Shown here: in pieces, positions 273 to 22,510 of the stretch
How the letters are laid out: each line of letters begins with the position of its first letter
How positions within the stretch are numbered: the first letter of the stretch is position 1
Translations under genes and position numbers: made by a program
The notes under the pieces: generated by a model
The model's database searches: none
What the model was told of the DNA's origin: nothing
The model's input: only the letters and a program-made list of their open reading frames with translations
From: a virus
DNA length: 22,510 bases
Virus record (IMG/VR): IMGVR_UViG_3300025276_000234
Coordinates: 1 to 22,510 of that record
Strand: one strand, 5' to 3'

Positions 273-1211
273 ATGAACCAAGTATCAGAAACAAACTACC
301 AAGACCGCGTGTACCAAGCGTACGCTGAACCCTTAACCCCTGCGCCTGTGCCCTCGATATCTAGCAGCGCAGTGCTAGTGAGTCTGTCTAGGTCTGTACC
401 CAAGATGACCAAGATAGACAAACAAGTTACCGCAGAGGTAACTTCCGCTAAACACGCGAGCAAAAGCGCGGGTAAATTCCAGAAGAAACTACTTAACTGT
501 AGCGTGCTAGATGCACTGCATACGCTTAGTGGGCAGATATACAGTTACCACATAGAGAACACTGTAGCGTGGACAGATCGAGGTCCAAGGCTGCTGCCCA
601 ATGAGAAGCTGATCGACTACAAGAATACGGTGGAGGCGTTCTTTGTCGAGGCAGACCTGTTATGGGAAGACTTTTTGCGGGTGTATCCAAGTAGGGTAGC
701 CAGTGCGCAGCTAAACCACGTGGGGGATATGTTCAATGAGTCGGACTACCCGACAGTCGAAGAGCTACGCCGTAAGTTCCGTATGGCTGTGTCCTATGAG
801 CCGATACCCGATGCGGGTGATTTCCGAGTGGATATAGGTAACCAAGCTGCACAGGAAATGGCAGATACATACACCACGTTGCTACAAGACAGGGTTAGAG
901 CTGCGATGGGTGACGTGATGGAACGCTTGACCGCCCCCCTAGTGAACATGAGTAAGATGCTGGACTACCACGAGGGCGAGAAGGCCACGGGATTCAGAGA
1001 TACGCTAGTCGATAACGTGACGGCTATTGTAGACCTGCTGCGCACATGCAATCTGACTAACGACCCGCACATCACTAGTGTACAGAAACAACTGCGTGCA
1101 ACGCTGACAGGTGTAACGCCTGATGGACTGCGCCGAGACCCTACGCTGCGAGCCAATACCAAGCGCGACGTAGACTCGATCATCAAAAACCTCCCCTCGC
1201 TAGGCTTCTAG
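273..1211 (+). CDS. DUF3150-like protein, 312 aa
   Basis: ATG 273 follows AGGAG (261-265) at a 7-base gap. The protein looks like the DUF3150 family of phage and proteobacterial proteins: an LSRSVPKMTKIDKQVTAEV segment (about residues 38-56), then WTDRGPRLLP (100-109), a helical FFVEADLLWEDFL stretch, a DYPTVEELRRKF segment (about 158-169) and PIPDAGDFRVDI. It is predicted to be mostly alpha-helical, with no signal peptide or membrane segment. From memory, DUF3150 genes sit beside a CobS/MoxR-like ATPase and a VWA protein, and both follow here, which supports the call. No enzymatic activity is established for the family; a partner or adaptor role with the ATPase is inference. The family name rests on recalled sequence feel. 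Confidence 0.7.
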   Translation: MNQVSETNYQDRVYQAYAEPLTPAPVPSISSSAVLVSLSRSVPKMTKIDKQVTAEVTSAKHASKSAGKFQKKLLNCSVLDALHTLSGQIYSYHIENTVAWTDRGPRLLPNEKLIDYKNTVEAFFVEADLLWEDFLRVYPSRVASAQLNHVGDMFNESDYPTVEELRRKFRMAVSYEPIPDAGDFRVDIGNQAAQEMADTYTTLLQDRVRAAMGDVMERLTAPLVNMSKMLDYHEGEKATGFRDTLVDNVTAIVDLLRTCNLTNDPHITSVQKQLRATLTGVTPDGLRRDPTLRANTKRDVDSIIKNLPSLGF

Positions 1212-1226
1212 CGGGTGGGTGTACTA

Positions 1227-1254
1227 TTGACATAACATAACAGAACCTTATAAT
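1227..1254 (+). promoter_or_regulatory. Near-perfect sigma70 promoter
   Basis: TTGACA (1227-1232) and TATAAT (1249-1254) are both full consensus hexamers, separated by 16 bases. The site lies in the 119-base gap between the DUF3150-like gene and the AAA+ ATPase gene, giving a predicted start near 1261 and a leader of about 70 bases. It points to transcription of the ATPase/VWA module by host RNA polymerase soon after infection. Confidence 0.85.
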
Positions 1255-1296
1255 AGACACCGTAACAGCAACAAACAGCACGACCCCAACCAACCC

Positions 1297-1314
1297 TGTG
1301 GACAATTGTCCACA
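1297..1314. promoter_or_regulatory. 18-bp perfect palindrome, candidate operator
   Basis: The sequence TGTGGACAATTGTCCACA is its own reverse complement with no interruption. It lies about 36 bases downstream of the predicted transcription start and 16 bases ahead of the ATPase start codon, immediately before the GGAG ribosome binding site. Position and symmetry suit a dimeric repressor site. As RNA it could form only a tight hairpin with a small loop, and no U-tract follows, so it is not a terminator. The binding protein is unknown. Confidence 0.6.
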
Positions 1315-1330
1315 ACAACGGAGCAACACA

Positions 1331-2431
1331 ATGAATAACGCAAACACAGCACAAGCAATGTACGCACTGGGCATCAACCAAACAGCCGACCTGATCGGCA
1401 CCATCGGGCGGGACATAACGGTAGTGGTGCAAGGAAACATGGGGACAGGCAAGTCCTCGATCATTAACATCCTCGCTGACCGTTTTCCAAACCACAAACC
1501 TGTTTACCTAGACTGTACAACGATGGTCGATTCAGCCGACATGTTTATGGTCAAGTATTCCGAGGACGGTAAGACCTTTAAGACCGTGCCGCTCGAAGAC
1601 CTTGGGCTACACCTGCCAGACCAACCCATTATTCTAATGCTAGACGAGATCGGTAAGTGTAACCGCTCAGTGATCCTAGCCTGTAACCGCATCATGCTCG
1701 AACGTAAGCACAGCGGGTATGAGTTACACCCTGACAGTATTGTGTTCGCTACTACTAACCTAGGCTCCGAAGGGTTAGGCGACCTACTACCTGCACACAC
1801 CCGCAATCGCATCACCGTAGTGACCATGCGTAACCCTGACAACATGGAGTTCATCGAGGACTTTGGCATCAACAACAACCTCGACCCTGCACTACTTGGT
1901 TTCTGTAAAGAGAAGCCCGAGCTATTCCACAGCTTCGAGCAGTACGAGAACCCCGAGGAGAACCCTTACATACCTCACCCACGCGCCAACCGTGTTGCCT
2001 TTACTACCCCACGCTCACTGCACAGGGCTAGTGACATACTCAAAATGCGCCACTTGTTGGACGACACACAGCTATCCGCTGCCTTGATTGGTACGATTGG
2101 TGACCGTGCTGCGCTAGACCTAGCTGCCTTTATATCCCTAGCTGACAAGCTACCAACCCGCGAACAGATAGAGACCGACCCGATGAATGCGCCTGTACCT
2201 GACAGCCCTGCGGCTATGTGTATGGTGGTGTATCGAGCACTGGCAACTATCGAACGTAAGTGGGTAGACCCTTGGCTGACTTACATGAACAGGTTACCCA
2301 AGGAAGCACAGGGCTTGTTCGTTAACGGAGTGCGTGCCCCCAAGTACAGCCGACGTGACTACGTGGTGCAGAACAAGGGGTTCCAAGACTGGTGCATGGC
2401 TAACAACTACATGTTCAGTGCTGACAAATAA
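1331..2431 (+). CDS. MoxR/CobS-like AAA+ ATPase, 366 aa
   Basis: An AAA+ ATPase of the MoxR/CobS type. Walker A GNMGTGKSS is at residues 35-43, Walker B ILMLDEIGK at 101-109, sensor 1 VFATTNL at 138-144, and RNR at 158-160 is a likely arginine finger. A short N-terminal region and a C-terminal helical lid (to SADK) complete it. I chose ATG 1331 because GGAG (1320-1323) lies 7 bases upstream; a GTG at 1298 in the same frame has no ribosome binding site and overlaps the palindrome. MoxR-type ATPases work as ring-shaped remodellers with a VWA partner; a VWA protein follows at 2568. In cobaltochelatase, CobS with CobT drives metal insertion, but no CobN-like subunit is visible, so protein remodelling is a better guess than cobalamin synthesis. 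Confidence 0.88.
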   Translation: MNNANTAQAMYALGINQTADLIGTIGRDITVVVQGNMGTGKSSIINILADRFPNHKPVYLDCTTMVDSADMFMVKYSEDGKTFKTVPLEDLGLHLPDQPIILMLDEIGKCNRSVILACNRIMLERKHSGYELHPDSIVFATTNLGSEGLGDLLPAHTRNRITVVTMRNPDNMEFIEDFGINNNLDPALLGFCKEKPELFHSFEQYENPEENPYIPHPRANRVAFTTPRSLHRASDILKMRHLLDDTQLSAALIGTIGDRAALDLAAFISLADKLPTREQIETDPMNAPVPDSPAAMCMVVYRALATIERKWVDPWLTYMNRLPKEAQGLFVNGVRAPKYSRRDYVVQNKGFQDWCMANNYMFSADK

Positions 2432-2442
2432 GGGGGTGAGGT

Positions 2443-2574
2443 ATGGATAGGCAAGAGTTTTTTGAGTGGTTAGAAACGTGCCCGACCCACAAGTGGGAAG
2501 TAAACGACGAAGGGGAAGGGTATATCGTCGTGTCATTCCCAACACAAGAATACGAGGAGAACGAATCATGCTAG
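2443..2574 (+). CDS. Small hypothetical protein, 43 aa
   Basis: ATG 2443 follows GGGGGTGAGG (2432-2441), a purine-rich but very close ribosome binding site. The product has TCPTHKWEVNDEGEGYIVVSF in its middle, a pattern like short phage proteins with a CPxHxW motif, then a glutamate-rich tail. Its stop (2572-2574) overlaps the VWA start by seven bases, so translation is probably coupled. It fills the gap between ATPase and VWA genes exactly, which argues that it is real. Function unknown. Confidence 0.6.
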   Translation: MDRQEFFEWLETCPTHKWEVNDEGEGYIVVSFPTQEYEENESC

Positions 2575-3809
2575 CAATCAACACACAACTATCAGCCGAA
2601 CAGCGGCTATCTAAAAACATCACGCAGATCATGGGCAACCCGAAGTACGTGGCGCTCGCAGGTGTACTAATGATCGGTGAGAAGGGTATCAAGGACGACT
2701 GCCCTACTGCCTACACTAACGGACGTGATGACTACTATGGACGTGCGTTTGTCGATGGACTGGCAGACTCAGAGTTTCGGTTCCTGATACTACACGAGAC
2801 ATACCACAAGCTGTTCAAGCACCTGACTACGTGGGATCACTTGTACAAGGACGATGCGCAGCTAGCCAACATGGCGTGTGACTACGTGATTAACCTGATG
2901 ATCGCTGACGAGAACCGTGACATGTTTGCGGTGATGCCCAAGGATGCTGAGGGTAACGCGATAGGCTTACTCGATGAGAAGTTCCGCAACATGGACACAG
3001 CGCAGGTCTACAAGATACTGAAACAAGAACAGGAAGAGAACGGTGGTGGTGGGGAAGGTGACGAAGGTGAAGGTGAAGGTAGTGGCAGCGGGGCAGGTGC
3101 AGGTGGTGGGCTAGACGAGCACGACTGGGAAGGTGCACAGGAAATGGACGAAGACGAACGGCGTGGGCTAGCACGAGACATCGACGAAGCTATACGCCAA
3201 GGTGCGCTGACCGCAGGTAAGGTAGGTAGTGGAGGCAACCGAGCTATCGACCAACTACTACAGCCCGAGGTTAACTGGCGCGAGGTGCTGCGTGAGTTCA
3301 TTACAGAAACGTGTCGAGGTAACGACGACAGCACGTGGAGACAGCCTAGTCGACGACATCTAGCGATGGGCATACTTCGACCTAGTGGTATTACCGAGCG
3401 AGTGGGCGAGCTAGTCATTGCCATCGACACGTCGGGAAGTATTGGACAGCACGAGTTAACCAAGTGCCTGAGTGAGATCAAGGGTGTCTGCGATATGGTC
3501 AAGCCCGAATCCGTTCGCATACTGTACTGGGATACCAAGGTGTGCAGCGAGGAAGTATACGGTGCTACAGGTACGCCACTCGAACAGCTTACACAAACAA
3601 CCAAGCCCGCAGGTGGTGGGGGTACGATGGTGCAGTGTGTGCCTGACTACATACAAGAGAAGAACATCAACGCACAGGCAGTGATCGTGCTGACTGATGG
3701 CTATCTAGGTGGGCATTGGGGTGCATGGAGCACGCCGCTACTGTGGGGAATCCTAGATAACAAGAGTGCCCGACCCACAATCGGCAAGACCTTACACATC
3801 AACCTATAA
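2568..3809 (+). CDS. VWA-like protein with N-terminal HExxH metallopeptidase-like domain (DUF2201 type), 413 aa
   Basis: Two parts are joined by a flexible linker. The N-terminal domain has LILHETYHK (HExxH, residues 76-80) and NMACDYVIN (101-109), as in the putative metallopeptidase domain of DUF2201 proteins. A Gly/Glu/Ser-rich acidic linker covers about 157-181. The C-terminal VWA-like domain has a MIDAS motif DTSGS (287-291), a GGGGT loop (349-353) and LTDG (375-378). ATG 2568 is chosen because GAGGAG lies just upstream; a start at 2466 in the same frame would run through the preceding small gene and add 34 unsupported residues. VWA proteins of this kind pair with MoxR ATPases, which matches the gene at 1331. 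Whether the HExxH site is catalytic or structural cannot be told; substrate unknown. Confidence 0.85.
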   Translation: MLAINTQLSAEQRLSKNITQIMGNPKYVALAGVLMIGEKGIKDDCPTAYTNGRDDYYGRAFVDGLADSEFRFLILHETYHKLFKHLTTWDHLYKDDAQLANMACDYVINLMIADENRDMFAVMPKDAEGNAIGLLDEKFRNMDTAQVYKILKQEQEENGGGGEGDEGEGEGSGSGAGAGGGLDEHDWEGAQEMDEDERRGLARDIDEAIRQGALTAGKVGSGGNRAIDQLLQPEVNWREVLREFITETCRGNDDSTWRQPSRRHLAMGILRPSGITERVGELVIAIDTSGSIGQHELTKCLSEIKGVCDMVKPESVRILYWDTKVCSEEVYGATGTPLEQLTQTTKPAGGGGTMVQCVPDYIQEKNINAQAVIVLTDGYLGGHWGAWSTPLLWGILDNKSARPTIGKTLHINL

Positions 3810-3826
3810 CTAACAGGAGCTACACC

Positions 3827-4813
3827 ATGAGAAACCGCATAGAAAAAACATTCGGATTTGACGCATCACTTAACCGCGAGATGGAGGTAGACAACTACTC
3901 TCCACGAATGGCAACGGAGTTAGCCGCGTTACAGAAACGTGTTAAGAAGTCTCACCCATTCGCTAAGTTCAGACACACCGCAGACGATGCGTTAGCCATA
4001 CGCCTTAGCCCCCAGAGTATGTGCTTCGATGCCAAGGTATCGTGGGACAAGGATGCCTACATAGTTATGACTGTAAGCACCCACCGCGCACGCGAACTAC
4101 CCTACGCCGACTTGGATAGGTACGGCATAGCCTACATTGATAGAAGTTTCACTAGCCTAACTAAGACCCTAGCCCGCGCGACTAAGCTAGTCAAAGATAC
4201 CGAAAGCGTGACAGGCGAGCGTGTGTTAGAGAAAATCATGCAGAGAACTGTAGACCCCTTTGGTCGAGGTCTTAAGCAAGCCCAAGAGACGTTAAACGAA
4301 CTCCAGTCTCGAGTGTTCAACGCAATGAGAAGCTCCGTAAGCAATGAGGCGCTGCTCGAATACTCCTTAGCTACTATGGAACAACGCCCAGTACGTGCCG
4401 ACATACGCCATCAAGTTGAGGACTGCACTAACAAGTACCTAGAGAGTAAGCGGGACTTAGGTGACTCTATTGCTGCGTGCGATGGACTACAGACTCTTTC
4501 TATATACAAGCTGAAGGACGTAGACAAGGTGTTCTTTCACTACAGAGACACGACCGCAGGTGAGATGCAGCGCGTCAAGCACGTAGACGATGTAAACAAT
4601 TTACCCCAAGAAGTTCTGGCTAAGCTGTCTGTGCTGCAAGCTACAGGTATAGATGCGATGGAGCCGTTGGGGTATTCGTATGACATAAAGGTGCTGACTA
4701 GTATTGGCTGCGTGCACAGAGACGCGAGCGATCTTGACTTTGTTGAAGACGCTATGTGTGTCTACGTCTCGCCCGAAACAATGACGGAGGTAGAAGCCCT
4801 TGTCGGATACTAA
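3827..4813 (+). CDS. Hypothetical protein, 328 aa, in the ATPase/VWA module
   Basis: ATG 3827 follows AGGAG (about 3814-3818) and lies 17 bases after the VWA stop, so it is probably in the same operon. No domain is recognised. The first 130 residues mix beta and helix (LAIRLSPQSMCFDAKVSWDK, IVMTV). The middle, about 130-225, is strongly helical with heptad-like spacing (LKQAQETLNELQSRVFNAM; VEDCTNKYLESKRDLGDSI). The end returns to mixed structure. There is no signal peptide or membrane segment. The gene order ATPase, VWA, this protein suggests a partner, substrate or adaptor of the module, but that rests on position alone. Confidence 0.75.
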   Translation: MRNRIEKTFGFDASLNREMEVDNYSPRMATELAALQKRVKKSHPFAKFRHTADDALAIRLSPQSMCFDAKVSWDKDAYIVMTVSTHRARELPYADLDRYGIAYIDRSFTSLTKTLARATKLVKDTESVTGERVLEKIMQRTVDPFGRGLKQAQETLNELQSRVFNAMRSSVSNEALLEYSLATMEQRPVRADIRHQVEDCTNKYLESKRDLGDSIAACDGLQTLSIYKLKDVDKVFFHYRDTTAGEMQRVKHVDDVNNLPQEVLAKLSVLQATGIDAMEPLGYSYDIKVLTSIGCVHRDASDLDFVEDAMCVYVSPETMTEVEALVGY

Positions 4814-19223: not shown

Positions 19224-22200
19224 TTACTCATCTTCGTACAATCTGTCCCCGTACTGCCTTCTTGATTCTAGTAGGGACTGGATAAACCTACGGTCTGCCA
19301 CGTTACCACCGAGTTGTTCTGCTATCGCAGAGCCTCTAGCGCGCGTTTTAATAGACTGGCGTAGGGTCTCGGCTTTTATTGCCACGTTGCCGTGCTTCTG
19401 GTTGAACTCTCGTATGTCCTCTATTACTTGCTCTTTACCTGCCTCGTCCCCGTTGTTATGGGCAAAAGCAAACCGATCTAGCAGCCCTTTACGCATACCG
19501 CCAACACCGGTAGTTACGCGGCGGTCTCTCGCTAGCTTGTCCTGCTCAGCACGGAACTTAGAGGGGGCAAAGCCCATCGTCTGTAGGATCGCATCTCCTA
19601 CGGTAACCTCTCCGACAATAGCATCCCCGCGCGTAGTCTCGTAGCCCTCTGTAGCGTACCGATAGGCTTTCTTGCCGTTAGATATAGCAGTGGGTAGCAT
19701 ACCTTCTACAGCCCGCGTGTCGTTCCTAGGGTCGTCATCAAAGTAACGGGCTATGTTGGTGCCCAGTCGTATGCCAATACCTATCGTAGGTCCACCGAAA
19801 GACTCTAACCCGTATTGGATAGTGTTTTCTGGGCGGTAGTTACCTTTGTCTCGAATCAGTAGGTTGGTTAGGGCAACACGATCCGTTACGTCCGTACCAA
19901 AGTACTTAGCAACTGCGCCGTAAAAAGCACCTTCACCTAACGTTTTAGCTACTATAGTGTTTACGTCGTCTTCGTCCTCACCCAAAAACATGTTAGCAAT
20001 AGCCGCGACGAGGCCGTAGAAGGGTACACCTTTAGCGCCAACTAGCGCCGCGCCGGTAGCATTCATGTATATAAACGCATTACGCAAGGCACGGTCTTCT
20101 TCTATCTGCTCTGGCGTACGGGTTGCCCCTCTGGCCTGACGCTGTATGGCGTTTAGCATATTCATTTGGATATACAGTATCTGGGCAGGGAAACGCTTAA
20201 ATTGGTAGATGATGCTACCCACCCCACTTTGCGCCCAACGAGGAGCGGTGGCGAGTAATGCTGAGCTGTTTGCGTACTCCATAAACTCAATAGCTATCTG
20301 CGCGGCTTTTTCTCCGTGGGCTTCGAGCTGAGCTTCGGTTAGTTTATCTATGGGCTTACCGTACTTCTTCTCCATCTCTAGGATATAGGCGCTGCCCGCT
20401 GTAATCTGGCGAATAGCCCGTTCCGAATGGTTGAAGATGAAGCTAGATACGTAGGCTATCTTGTTTAGTAAAGGCGCAGCAGGGTTTTCGTAGTCTGCGT
20501 TCTCTGACGAAATAGTACGGGTGTCTAAACCCAGTTCTTTAAGTTTCGCTATTAGTGGCCCAAGCAGCCCCCCTTCTTTGTTTGCGTAACTAAACCCGCC
20601 TAGCTCAGATATATCGCCTACCTCACCTTCTTTTGTAATGCCCTCGCGCGTAACGTCGCCAAAGGATTGTAAGTACATAGTTGAAGCGCGAGACATAGCC
20701 GAGGTAGCGTTAACTAAACCGAACTTACCGGCCAGTAGTGGCCCCACGACCATAGGTAGGGTAGACATGTTTACCGCAGCAGAGGATACGTTAAAACCTA
20801 GCGTGTAGATAAACGATGAAGAGCGCAGTCTACGCGCCCAGTTAGGCAGGTTCGGGTTTTTAACGAACTCTAAATAGCTAGATAGTTTACCCGGCAAGGA
20901 GTTTGTTTCGGCAGGAGTACCTACGAGCGCCTTCATTACATCTTGTACTAGACGGTCGTCTGCGTTAGCTCCTGCCGCAGCTTCCTCCCGTATTTTATTG
21001 GCGACAAGCGCAAAGTCTGCATCAAAGGACAGATTCGCAAGGCTGTTAACCAGTGTAGGGTACGTATCCTCGAAAGCTTTAATAGCCTGTGTTTCGTAGC
21101 CTGCAAACCCTTCGCGGCCCATGTGCCCCTGTATTAGATTTTGTTCGGGTAACGACTTTATTAGCACGTCGTCAACAAAATCAATCGCCCCTTGAGGTAG
21201 GGTAACTTGCTTCTCTACGTCGTTTCCGTTTGCGTCTTTCTCAACGATCGTAACCGGCTTTTTAAGTTCGGCAAGTAGGTCAACTAAGAATCCTGTAGGG
21301 ACATTAAACCCTTGAGAGGACATATCCGGACGGGGTTTTGGTTTAACAGACTCCGGCACTACATCCGTACGAGCTTTAAGGGCGTTTATAGCTACCTCGC
21401 GGAGACCTTTGCTCGGGTGCGAGCTAACCCCATACTTGACCTGCCCGTCTCTATCTTTGTACTCATACTCAACCCAGAATTCACCCGGACGATTAAGTGG
21501 GAAATAGGGGTCAATAACGCCAGAGGTAAGCAGCTTTCTAAACACTCTGTCTTTAACTGTAGCTTTAACACCGGCTTCTATGTCTAGTTTGTCTAACTTG
21601 TCGTCAATAGCGGCGAGAATATCCGCGTTAATTTGTTTATACATATCCCGCATTTCGCGGTAGGCGGTCTTTTGTGTGGGTGACAGCTTGTTGTACAGCC
21701 GTTGCGCTTCCTCGTACGCAGTAATGCGCTCTTGGGTAGTGTTTAGTTTCCTAACCCCGGCGAGGATGTTTGTCTTATCGAGGGCTTCTACTGCCTCATC
21801 GCGTTGCGCTTCCGTAGGGAACGTTACCTTTTCTACTACATTACCGTTGGTGTCTGTGTAGCTGTACCCAAAGTTTTTATAGCGGGCAGCCGGTTTAGTA
21901 GGGTCTACTTCCTCGATAGTGCTAAGCCCTACTAAGGTATTGTAGGTTTCTGTTGCTGCGCTATCGTCTTTAAACGCTTCTTTGAAATCACTTAGCTTAT
22001 TGCCAAAGGTCTTCATTAACTCGTTGCGCTTGCCGTCTTGCTTACGGATAAAATTTTGGAAGTCTGCTGCTGATGGCAGCCTTTCTTTGATGAGATCGAC
22101 TATGTTGTCCAAAGTCATAGCGTTAATCATGGTCACACGGGACTTAGCACCTAGCTCTTGTGCGTTACCCAGTATCCAATCTTTGGAATCTTTCAGCGTT

Positions 22201-22510
22201 TTACGTTTAGCAAGCGCCGTACCGCCGCCCATCATTTCGTAGGCCGCGCGAAGTGCGTCACCATCGGACAGTTTTTGTTCTACTACTGTAGCATCACGGG
22301 TTGATATGGACTCTGCAACGATTAAGTTCACGAAGTCTAACGCTGCGTCTGCTACGGTCTCAACTTCAGTGGTGGGCATACCAAATAGGCGTTTAATAGC
22401 ATTAGTAAACCGTTGCCACGCAGTTAACTTAGACCCAGTGGGCTTATGCGCAGCTAGTGTGGCTCTGAAATCGGGATTAGTGTATACCTCGGCAGCAAAG
22501 TCTTTTAGTG
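19224..22510 (-). CDS. C-terminal part of a giant polyvalent virion protein (LPD38-like), 1094 aa visible, partial
   Basis: The reverse-strand frame is open from the window edge to the stop at 19224-19226; an ATG at 22377-22379 is internal, since 43 more codons precede it without a stop (they include LTAWQRFTNAIKRLFG). The protein is mostly helical, with an ordered series of charged helices, a region with SSFIYTLGFNVSSAAVN (about 20780-20825), SSFIFNHSERAIRQITAG (about 20400-20450), and a hydrophobic stretch AALVGAKGVPFYGLVAAIAN (about 19990-20060). The segment from FIFNHSERAIRQ through FKRFPAQILYIQMNML matches large polyvalent proteins with the LPD38 domain. Such proteins are packed in the virion and injected with the DNA, carrying several enzymatic domains upstream. 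N-terminal domains lie outside the window. Confidence 0.78.
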   Translation of the reverse strand, partial: LKDFAAEVYTNPDFRATLAAHKPTGSKLTAWQRFTNAIKRLFGMPTTEVETVADAALDFVNLIVAESISTRDATVVEQKLSDGDALRAAYEMMGGGTALAKRKTLKDSKDWILGNAQELGAKSRVTMINAMTLDNIVDLIKERLPSAADFQNFIRKQDGKRNELMKTFGNKLSDFKEAFKDDSAATETYNTLVGLSTIEEVDPTKPAARYKNFGYSYTDTNGNVVEKVTFPTEAQRDEAVEALDKTNILAGVRKLNTTQERITAYEEAQRLYNKLSPTQKTAYREMRDMYKQINADILAAIDDKLDKLDIEAGVKATVKDRVFRKLLTSGVIDPYFPLNRPGEFWVEYEYKDRDGQVKYGVSSHPSKGLREVAINALKARTDVVPESVKPKPRPDMSSQGFNVPTGFLVDLLAELKKPVTIVEKDANGNDVEKQVTLPQGAIDFVDDVLIKSLPEQNLIQGHMGREGFAGYETQAIKAFEDTYPTLVNSLANLSFDADFALVANKIREEAAAGANADDRLVQDVMKALVGTPAETNSLPGKLSSYLEFVKNPNLPNWARRLRSSSFIYTLGFNVSSAAVNMSTLPMVVGPLLAGKFGLVNATSAMSRASTMYLQSFGDVTREGITKEGEVGDISELGGFSYANKEGGLLGPLIAKLKELGLDTRTISSENADYENPAAPLLNKIAYVSSFIFNHSERAIRQITAGSAYILEMEKKYGKPIDKLTEAQLEAHGEKAAQIAIEFMEYANSSALLATAPRWAQSGVGSIIYQFKRFPAQILYIQMNMLNAIQRQARGATRTPEQIEEDRALRNAFIYMNATGAALVGAKGVPFYGLVAAIANMFLGEDEDDVNTIVAKTLGEGAFYGAVAKYFGTDVTDRVALTNLLIRDKGNYRPENTIQYGLESFGGPTIGIGIRLGTNIARYFDDDPRNDTRAVEGMLPTAISNGKKAYRYATEGYETTRGDAIVGEVTVGDAILQTMGFAPSKFRAEQDKLARDRRVTTGVGGMRKGLLDRFAFAHNNGDEAGKEQVIEDIREFNQKHGNVAIKAETLRQSIKTRARGSAIAEQLGGNVADRRFIQSLLESRRQYGDRLYEDE

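Follow-up and report, generated by a model that had tools for sequence, protein, structure and literature searches.

The closest described relatives of the system considered here are pairs of phage genes. In N4-like phages, gp24 and gp25 (phrog_1297 and phrog_1314), which are listed as Schitoviridae core genes (PMC7650795), encode an ATPase and a metallopeptidase-VWA protein in the early/replication part of the genome, and a MoxR-vWA/metallopeptidase pair of jumbo phages was described by Iyer et al. in 2021 (PMC7824862). The pair is found in hundreds of phage genomes, and its function has only been proposed, as virion assembly. The virus record IMGVR_UViG_3300025276_000234, whose 22,510 bases are called the window throughout, carries homologues of both genes in one plus-strand block at 273–4813, together with a gene for a DUF3150-family protein. 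As in jumbo phages, the metallopeptidase of the window is fused to the vWA domain; the published arrangements differ in being two-part, with no DUF3150 in the N4, LUZ7, SBP1, JSF3 and nACB1 records or in phages G and UB. The DUF3150, ATPase and VWA genes form a strict module that also occurs on conjugative plasmids, and their sequences suggest, at a probability of about 0.45, a three-subunit ATP-driven protein remodeller or protease of phages and plasmids in which DUF3150 would help select targets.

Other MoxR-VWA systems offer partial parallels. NorQ/NorD resembles the window in combining a motor with a VWA partner that carries a metal-ion-dependent adhesion site (MIDAS), and probably in its docking mode, but serves metal insertion into nitric oxide reductase (PMC13036017, PMC9976466). 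The MoxR-vWA ternary conflict systems likewise have a third conserved subunit; however, those named (VMAP, iSTAND, FtsH) are not DUF3150, and these systems occur mainly in multicellular bacteria (PMC7159879). Searches of Pfam, PADLOC and NCBIfam gave no match to VMAP, iSTAND, FtsH or effector domains, the VMAP profile not having been compared directly. We know of no metallopeptidase head or DUF3150 in NorQ/NorD-type pairs. The CobN/CobS/CobT cobaltochelatase also has AAA+ ATPase and VWA subunits, whereas the window has neither CobN nor a CobT domain.

The original prediction, made from the letters of the window, had called the locus the strongest candidate for an undescribed system. This does not hold for the ATPase/metallopeptidase-VWA pair, which is published (PMC7824862, PMC7650795), but a DUF3150 third component and its plasmid occurrence were not found described. 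Our literature search, outside which most subscription journals lie, returned neither the trio or its sharing by phages and plasmids, nor DUF3150 in any role.

Co-occurrence of DUF3150, ATPase, and VWA Genes in Viruses

The three genes of the module lie in the window as follows.

273–1211, plus strand: DUF3150-family protein, 312 aa, identified by reading frame and family homology.
1331–2431, plus strand, from an ATG: MoxR-type AAA+ ATPase (phrog_1297), 366 aa, identified by Pfam, PHROGs and conserved residues.
2565–3809, plus strand: metallopeptidase-VWA protein (DUF2201_N plus DUF2201; phrog_1314), 414 aa.

A search with the VWA protein yielded 63 viral loci, in which the three genes are co-located wherever the contig reaches; the IMG/VR VWA loci without an ATPase or DUF3150 end there. 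The gene order is mostly DUF3150-ATPase-VWA, with ATPase-VWA-X-DUF3150 in a divergent group (L054, L057–L061). In the reverse test, starting from DUF3150, at least 570 viral stretches were found to encode relatives; 80 of these and 2 further loci were examined, and among these 82 every locus with at least 2.8 kb downstream (53/53) encodes both ATPase and VWA. The DUF3150 bearers do not form one clade in the ATPase and VWA trees, and at least three gains or losses of DUF3150 are needed to explain the ATPase tree, so the association is old or repeated rather than one recent block. Co-conservation this strict rules out chance for the three large genes, and DUF3150, ATPase and VWA constitute a strict module.

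The original prediction had grouped with these genes a 43-residue open reading frame (ORF) between ATPase and VWA and a 328-residue protein (p328) directly after VWA. All of these reading frames are indeed present in the one plus-strand block. Conservation across loci is strict for the three large genes, holds for p328 only within the phage lineage and fails for the 43-residue gene.

The Module on Plasmids and Bacterial Chromosomes

DUF3150 matches 41 plasmid records, mostly from Burkholderiales, of which 16 are predicted to be conjugative. ATPase, DUF3150 and VWA are contiguous in that order on Cupriavidus, Burkholderia and Rhodovastum plasmids, and in Simplicispira DUF3150-VWA is preceded by an ATPase ~3.6 kb upstream. 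Scanning genome contigs turned up 54 DUF3150 loci in bacteria, mostly on Burkholderiales plasmids; ATPase and VWA accompany every one that is not cut by a contig end, except L218, which has a DUF3150 fragment only and no VWA match. On a Dechloromonas chromosome the neighbours of the module are RecT, Toprim primase and RadC.

On B. cenocepacia and B. vietnamiensis plasmids the module lies immediately 5′ of type IV secretion genes, which bears on the idea of a virion assembly and processing chaperone-protease that would help fold and cut structural proteins in maturation, by analogy with tail assembly of the Acidianus two-tailed virus. Although such a role has been proposed for the ATPase/VWA pair of group 2.2 jumbo phages (PMC7824862), and structural genes lie close by in phage UB and cyanophage S-TIM61, the whole trio is present on conjugative plasmids, where the stretches read carry no annotated virion genes. 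In the window phage and N4-like phages the module is placed among replication genes, and in the window it has an early-type promoter and an early element. We therefore regard virion assembly as improbable. A strict third subunit and conjugative plasmids make it unlikely as the general purpose and shift the search to early establishment and DNA metabolism.

A natural disruption of DUF3150 was observed on a conjugative plasmid. In B. cenocepacia pBcp895-1 (L223, 1586–7173), an IS21 element lies between ATPase and VWA, at the position of DUF3150 in sister plasmids, and DUF3150 is present only in pieces.

A more distant version is found on IncA/C plasmids, which encode a strong PF11348 protein (298–307 bits) next to bet, exo and a VWA protein of the CobT-like kind; an ATPase of CbbQ_C type is encoded close by. 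The backbone cluster of pRA1 (AAA ATPase, bet, exo, DUF3150, VWA) is like the window in having a MoxR-type ATPase, a full-length DUF3150 (298 bits) and a VWA protein in one region, but differs in its CbbQ_C ATPase, its CobT-like VWA, the intervening bet and exo, and its remote DUF3150 homology, which is above chance (E 1e-4; hhalign 86.6% vs 0.1–0.6% for shuffles). A stretch similar to the pRA1 DUF3150-VWA genes occurs in 90 of 5426 complete E. coli genomes (~1.7%), nearly always on plasmids. Transfer of SXT falls by no more than tenfold on deletion of bet, exo, s067, s068 and s070 (PMC2791158); judged by gene order alone, s067 and s068 might encode DUF3150 and the VWA protein. As a separate observation, the CobT-like VWA protein of pRA1 (IncA; L235, 10513–12294) has one HExxH motif in its N-terminal part, and a peptidase-like head may be common to this protein and the DUF2201 proteins.

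The ATPase and the Metallopeptidase-VWA Protein

The window ATPase matches Pfam AAA_5 (E 3e-7; 30.8 bits vs a cut-off of 22) and phrog_1297 (E 1e-42). Conserved across 65 sequences are Walker A G35, G38, G40 and K41, Walker B D105, sensor-1 N143, R160 and the sensor-2-like R228. The AAA_5 match, Walker A/B motifs, sensor 1, arginines and linkage to a VWA gene identify it as a MoxR-type AAA+ ATPase, in agreement with the original prediction, whose further assignment to the CobS type was not borne out, as Pfam detected no CbbQ_C or CobT domain in the window proteins.

The VWA protein matches DUF2201_N (E 1e-27; 97.7 bits vs 23.2), the VWA-like DUF2201 (E 2e-12; 48.0 vs 26.4) and phrog_1314 (E 1e-87). 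The predicted VWA domain is therefore present, fused to a putative metallopeptidase domain that had gone unmentioned. The peptidase motif HExxHxxxxH (H77, E78, H81, H86), D106 and N110 are invariant in 77 sequences, as are D288, S290 and S292 of the MIDAS, T354 and D378 being kept at 99%. With these residues, the module appears equipped to turn over ATP, to grip in a metal-dependent way and to hydrolyse peptides. PHROGs labels phrog_1314 “HNH endonuclease,” a label repeated in many public records of the N4 gp25 type; it is unsupported by any Pfam match or conserved residue, the domain and motif being those of a metallopeptidase-VWA protein.

A role as cobaltochelatase helper, in which phage CobS/CobT-like subunits would hijack host CobN and raise cobalamin output, has been published for viral cobST clusters (PMC8651126), and the pairing of DUF3150 with a CobT-like VWA protein on IncA/C plasmids could be read in the same way. 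For this module it is highly improbable: the window VWA has no CobT domain, CobN is missing from all 18 related virus records (0/18), three of five module-carrying bacterial genomes, their completeness not being established, gave no CobN match, and DUF3150 would be left unexplained. To our knowledge, E. coli, the host of N4, is also without the aerobic CobN pathway. The absence of CobN had been put forward originally as the reason for seeing here a complete MoxR/VWA-type putative remodelling machine and not a cobaltochelatase, and both points are upheld.

The DUF3150 Protein

Searched alone, the 312-aa window protein has no PF11348 match in Pfam. Its homologue L060, which is 34% identical, scores 28.9 bits against a PF11348 cut-off of 24.9 and aligns with it over the full length, so that membership of the DUF3150 family is secure; the initial description as DUF3150-like was correct by way of family homology, though invisible from the window protein alone. 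The AlphaFold2 model (predicted local distance difference test [pLDDT] score 78; predicted template modelling score 0.49) is mostly helical, with long predicted helices at 110–149 and 184–229. A fold search of the PDB with this model returned nothing significant, nor did one with the p328 model (pLDDT 72), and a viral structure library yielded a DUF3150 protein and otherwise unnamed or uncharacterised viral proteins. Among candidates in other phages, LUZ7 gp036 was rejected as a DUF3150 since it is an AAA protein, and CRP-7 gp16, two MinM2 ORFs after VWA and the Vequintavirus gene before the metallopeptidase gave no profile match to p328 or DUF3150.

DUF3150 and p328 diverge faster than their neighbours, with median pairwise identities in the close clade of 53% and 55%, respectively, vs 85% for the ATPase, 86% for the VWA protein and 80% for PolA. 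Low identity beside a constant motor is as expected of target-facing subunits, and DUF3150 offers a tractable handle for naming the target. The divergence would also suit a counter-defence or host-takeover protease that, at entry, would unfold or cleave an immune or regulatory protein of the host, DUF3150 and p328 diversifying to follow this target. The early promoter, the sharing of the module by phages and conjugative plasmids, and the service of MoxR-vWA pairs in conflict systems (PMC7159879) are consistent with such a role, but the divergence is measured as pairwise identity, the neighbours are mostly DNA-metabolism genes, and no defence or counter-defence family was matched: PADLOC defence models (E ≤ 0.01) gave no match for DUF3150 or the VWA protein and only weak P-loop matches for the ATPase. 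We consider this role unlikely.

A Proposed Three-Subunit Remodeller

In the favoured reading, a three-subunit remodeller or protease, the MoxR ATPase would be the ring motor, the VWA protein would dock on the ring bearing its zinc-metallopeptidase head, and DUF3150, as a mostly helical third subunit, would most likely help choose the target. We favour a coupling of motor and VWA protein like that of NorQ/NorD (PMC13036017, PMC9976466), by analogy with which a VWA finger would enter the ring pore. The MIDAS metal could then hold an acidic patch on the target, ATP turnover would twist or stretch the target, and the HExxHxxxxH head would cut the exposed segment or change the target's metal.

NorQD is also the precedent for a machine without proteolysis, that is, a chaperone devoted to maturing, or inserting metal into, a single protein of the element that acts in replication or recombination. 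The PolA, RecT/Bet-Exo, primase and RadC neighbours seen in phages, the chromosome and IncA/C plasmids would be compatible with such a client; however, no single neighbour is constant in all contexts, and the invariant HExxHxxxxH suggests catalysis, which makes this alternative quite unlikely.

Several points weigh against the three-subunit remodeller or protease. HExxH motifs can be structural, the DUF3150 structure model is of only moderate confidence, and fast divergence of DUF3150 and p328 may also mean weak or relaxed constraint. The ATPase/VWA pair occurs without detectable DUF3150 in many phages (N4, LUZ7, phage G, RHph_TM27A), so DUF3150 is not required for every such machine; it is absent by search from N4, LUZ7, SBP1, nACB1, phage G, CRP-7, JSF3, S-TIM61, isim, UB, RHph_TM27A and Rollin. 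Finally, the DUF3150 of Ca. Manganitrophus, which is closer than the IncA/C protein (35.3 bits vs PF11348; E 7e-46 with the A2 profile), has another AAA+ protein as its neighbour, together with DUF1257 and DUF2997, and there is no VWA in the stretch read.

We tentatively raise a broader possibility, that DUF3150 is an AAA+ adaptor which mobile genetic elements can move from one motor to another. A single family of helical subunits might work with two or more MoxR-VWA motor sets, and perhaps with the Manganitrophus AAA+ machine as a third, directing each to proteins whose remodelling or cleavage is needed during establishment of the element. The two sets, as tentatively drawn, would be a DUF2201-type one in phages and Burkholderiales plasmids and a CobS/CobT-like one in IncA/C plasmids.

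Promoter, Palindromes, and Timing

Two short features lie between the DUF3150 gene and the ATPase start.

1227–1254, plus strand: sigma-70 consensus promoter TTGACA-N16-TATAAT in the DUF3150/ATPase gap, 12/12 match.
1297–1314, no strand: 18-bp perfect palindrome TGTGGACAATTGTCCACA 5′ of the ATPase start, a candidate operator-like or RNA element.

The promoter is the sole 12/12 sigma-70 site in the first 12 kb, the next best being 10/12. A promoter in the same gap matches at 11–12/12 in 13 of 14 close relatives and at 10/12 in L017, and the sister lineage is without it. Sites of this quality are few (19 at 11–12/12 in 218 kb of contigs vs 8 expected from one shuffle). An in-frame GTG at 1298 lies 5′ of the ATPase ATG at 1331.

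The palindrome is present in a single copy in the window. Relatives carry palindromes of their own, repeated 3–11 times at early gene starts. A palindrome with 8-bp arms is repeated at least three times in 77 of 131 loci (0 after shuffling), with 33 different arms, and 49% of 388 sites are followed within 80 nt by a start codon with its ribosome-binding site, vs 18% of random positions. In the 66-kb record of one relative, all seven sites fall within the 7.5-kb early/module block, so that the module shares this signal with early genes only. No correspondence between palindrome type and DUF3150 allele was apparent by eye. The palindromes are 17–22 bp long and phage-specific, their symmetry being kept while the arms differ (window 1297–1314; L007, L009, L010, L017, L020, L021, L037–L039, L130, and others), and they resemble operators or stoperators of the immunity type, or else an RNA element.

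“Early” is used here from gene position, and the evidence on timing is that of sequence only. Since the ATPase, VWA and p328 genes are preceded by a host-type promoter of their own, along with an element also present at early genes in relatives, early action is probable. The plasmid occurrence, the sigma-70 promoter and the early-gene element together argue against virion assembly and for an early role. The module probably acts early, on a host or phage protein of DNA replication, recombination, or defence.

The 43-Residue ORF and p328

Two further genes complete the block.

2443–2574, plus strand: 43-aa ORF, belonging to a set of alternative small ORFs found between ATPase and VWA.
3827–4813, plus strand: p328, a lineage-specific protein of 328 aa and a candidate accessory or substrate.

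The stop codon of the 43-aa ORF overlaps the VWA start (ATGCTAG). Relatives of this ORF are found in a few loci (L003, L103, L111), and other relatives of the phage have unrelated small ORFs or an empty gap; it was rejected as a conserved partner, the gap being filled by interchangeable small ORFs. The gap is shared by unrelated small ORFs (for example window 2443–2574, L003, L006, L018, L023), and several of them end in ESC-stop because the stop overlaps the VWA start codon, a pattern that suggests exchange and translational coupling.

p328 was found in 20 of the 63 viral loci (tblastn), and in the sister lineage the ORF that comes second after VWA gives a profile match to it (hhalign 95.9%, E 6e-9). 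It belongs to a fast-diverging family that is conserved only in the phage lineage of the window, with nothing recognisable beyond the sister lineage. p328 was not found in plasmids, in MinM2 or in the most divergent phage group (L054, L057–L061), and was rejected as a universal adaptor. The suggestion in the original prediction that this protein is the adaptor has to be given up, for the component that accompanies the motor across phages and plasmids is DUF3150; p328 is a candidate accessory or substrate.

Genomic Surroundings

In the window the module has PolA, exonuclease, single-stranded DNA-binding protein-like and primase-helicase genes as neighbours, and in N4-like phages helicase and PolA lie nearby. 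A phage nucleotide search with the first 6.5 kb of the window gave no match. The cultured Rhizobium phage RHph_TM27A (L221) has ATPase, metallopeptidase-VWA, PolA, RecB-like exonuclease, SNF2 helicase and primase in the same order as the window, with a giant gene on the opposite strand and no DUF3150, and allows a two-part machine to be compared with a three-part one. At the far end of the window, an open-ended 1094-aa ORF on the minus strand (19224–22508) resembles the C-terminal part of a DarB-like antirestriction family (phrog_10089, E 1e-35); it may belong to a giant polyvalent protein of which the contig edge leaves only the end.

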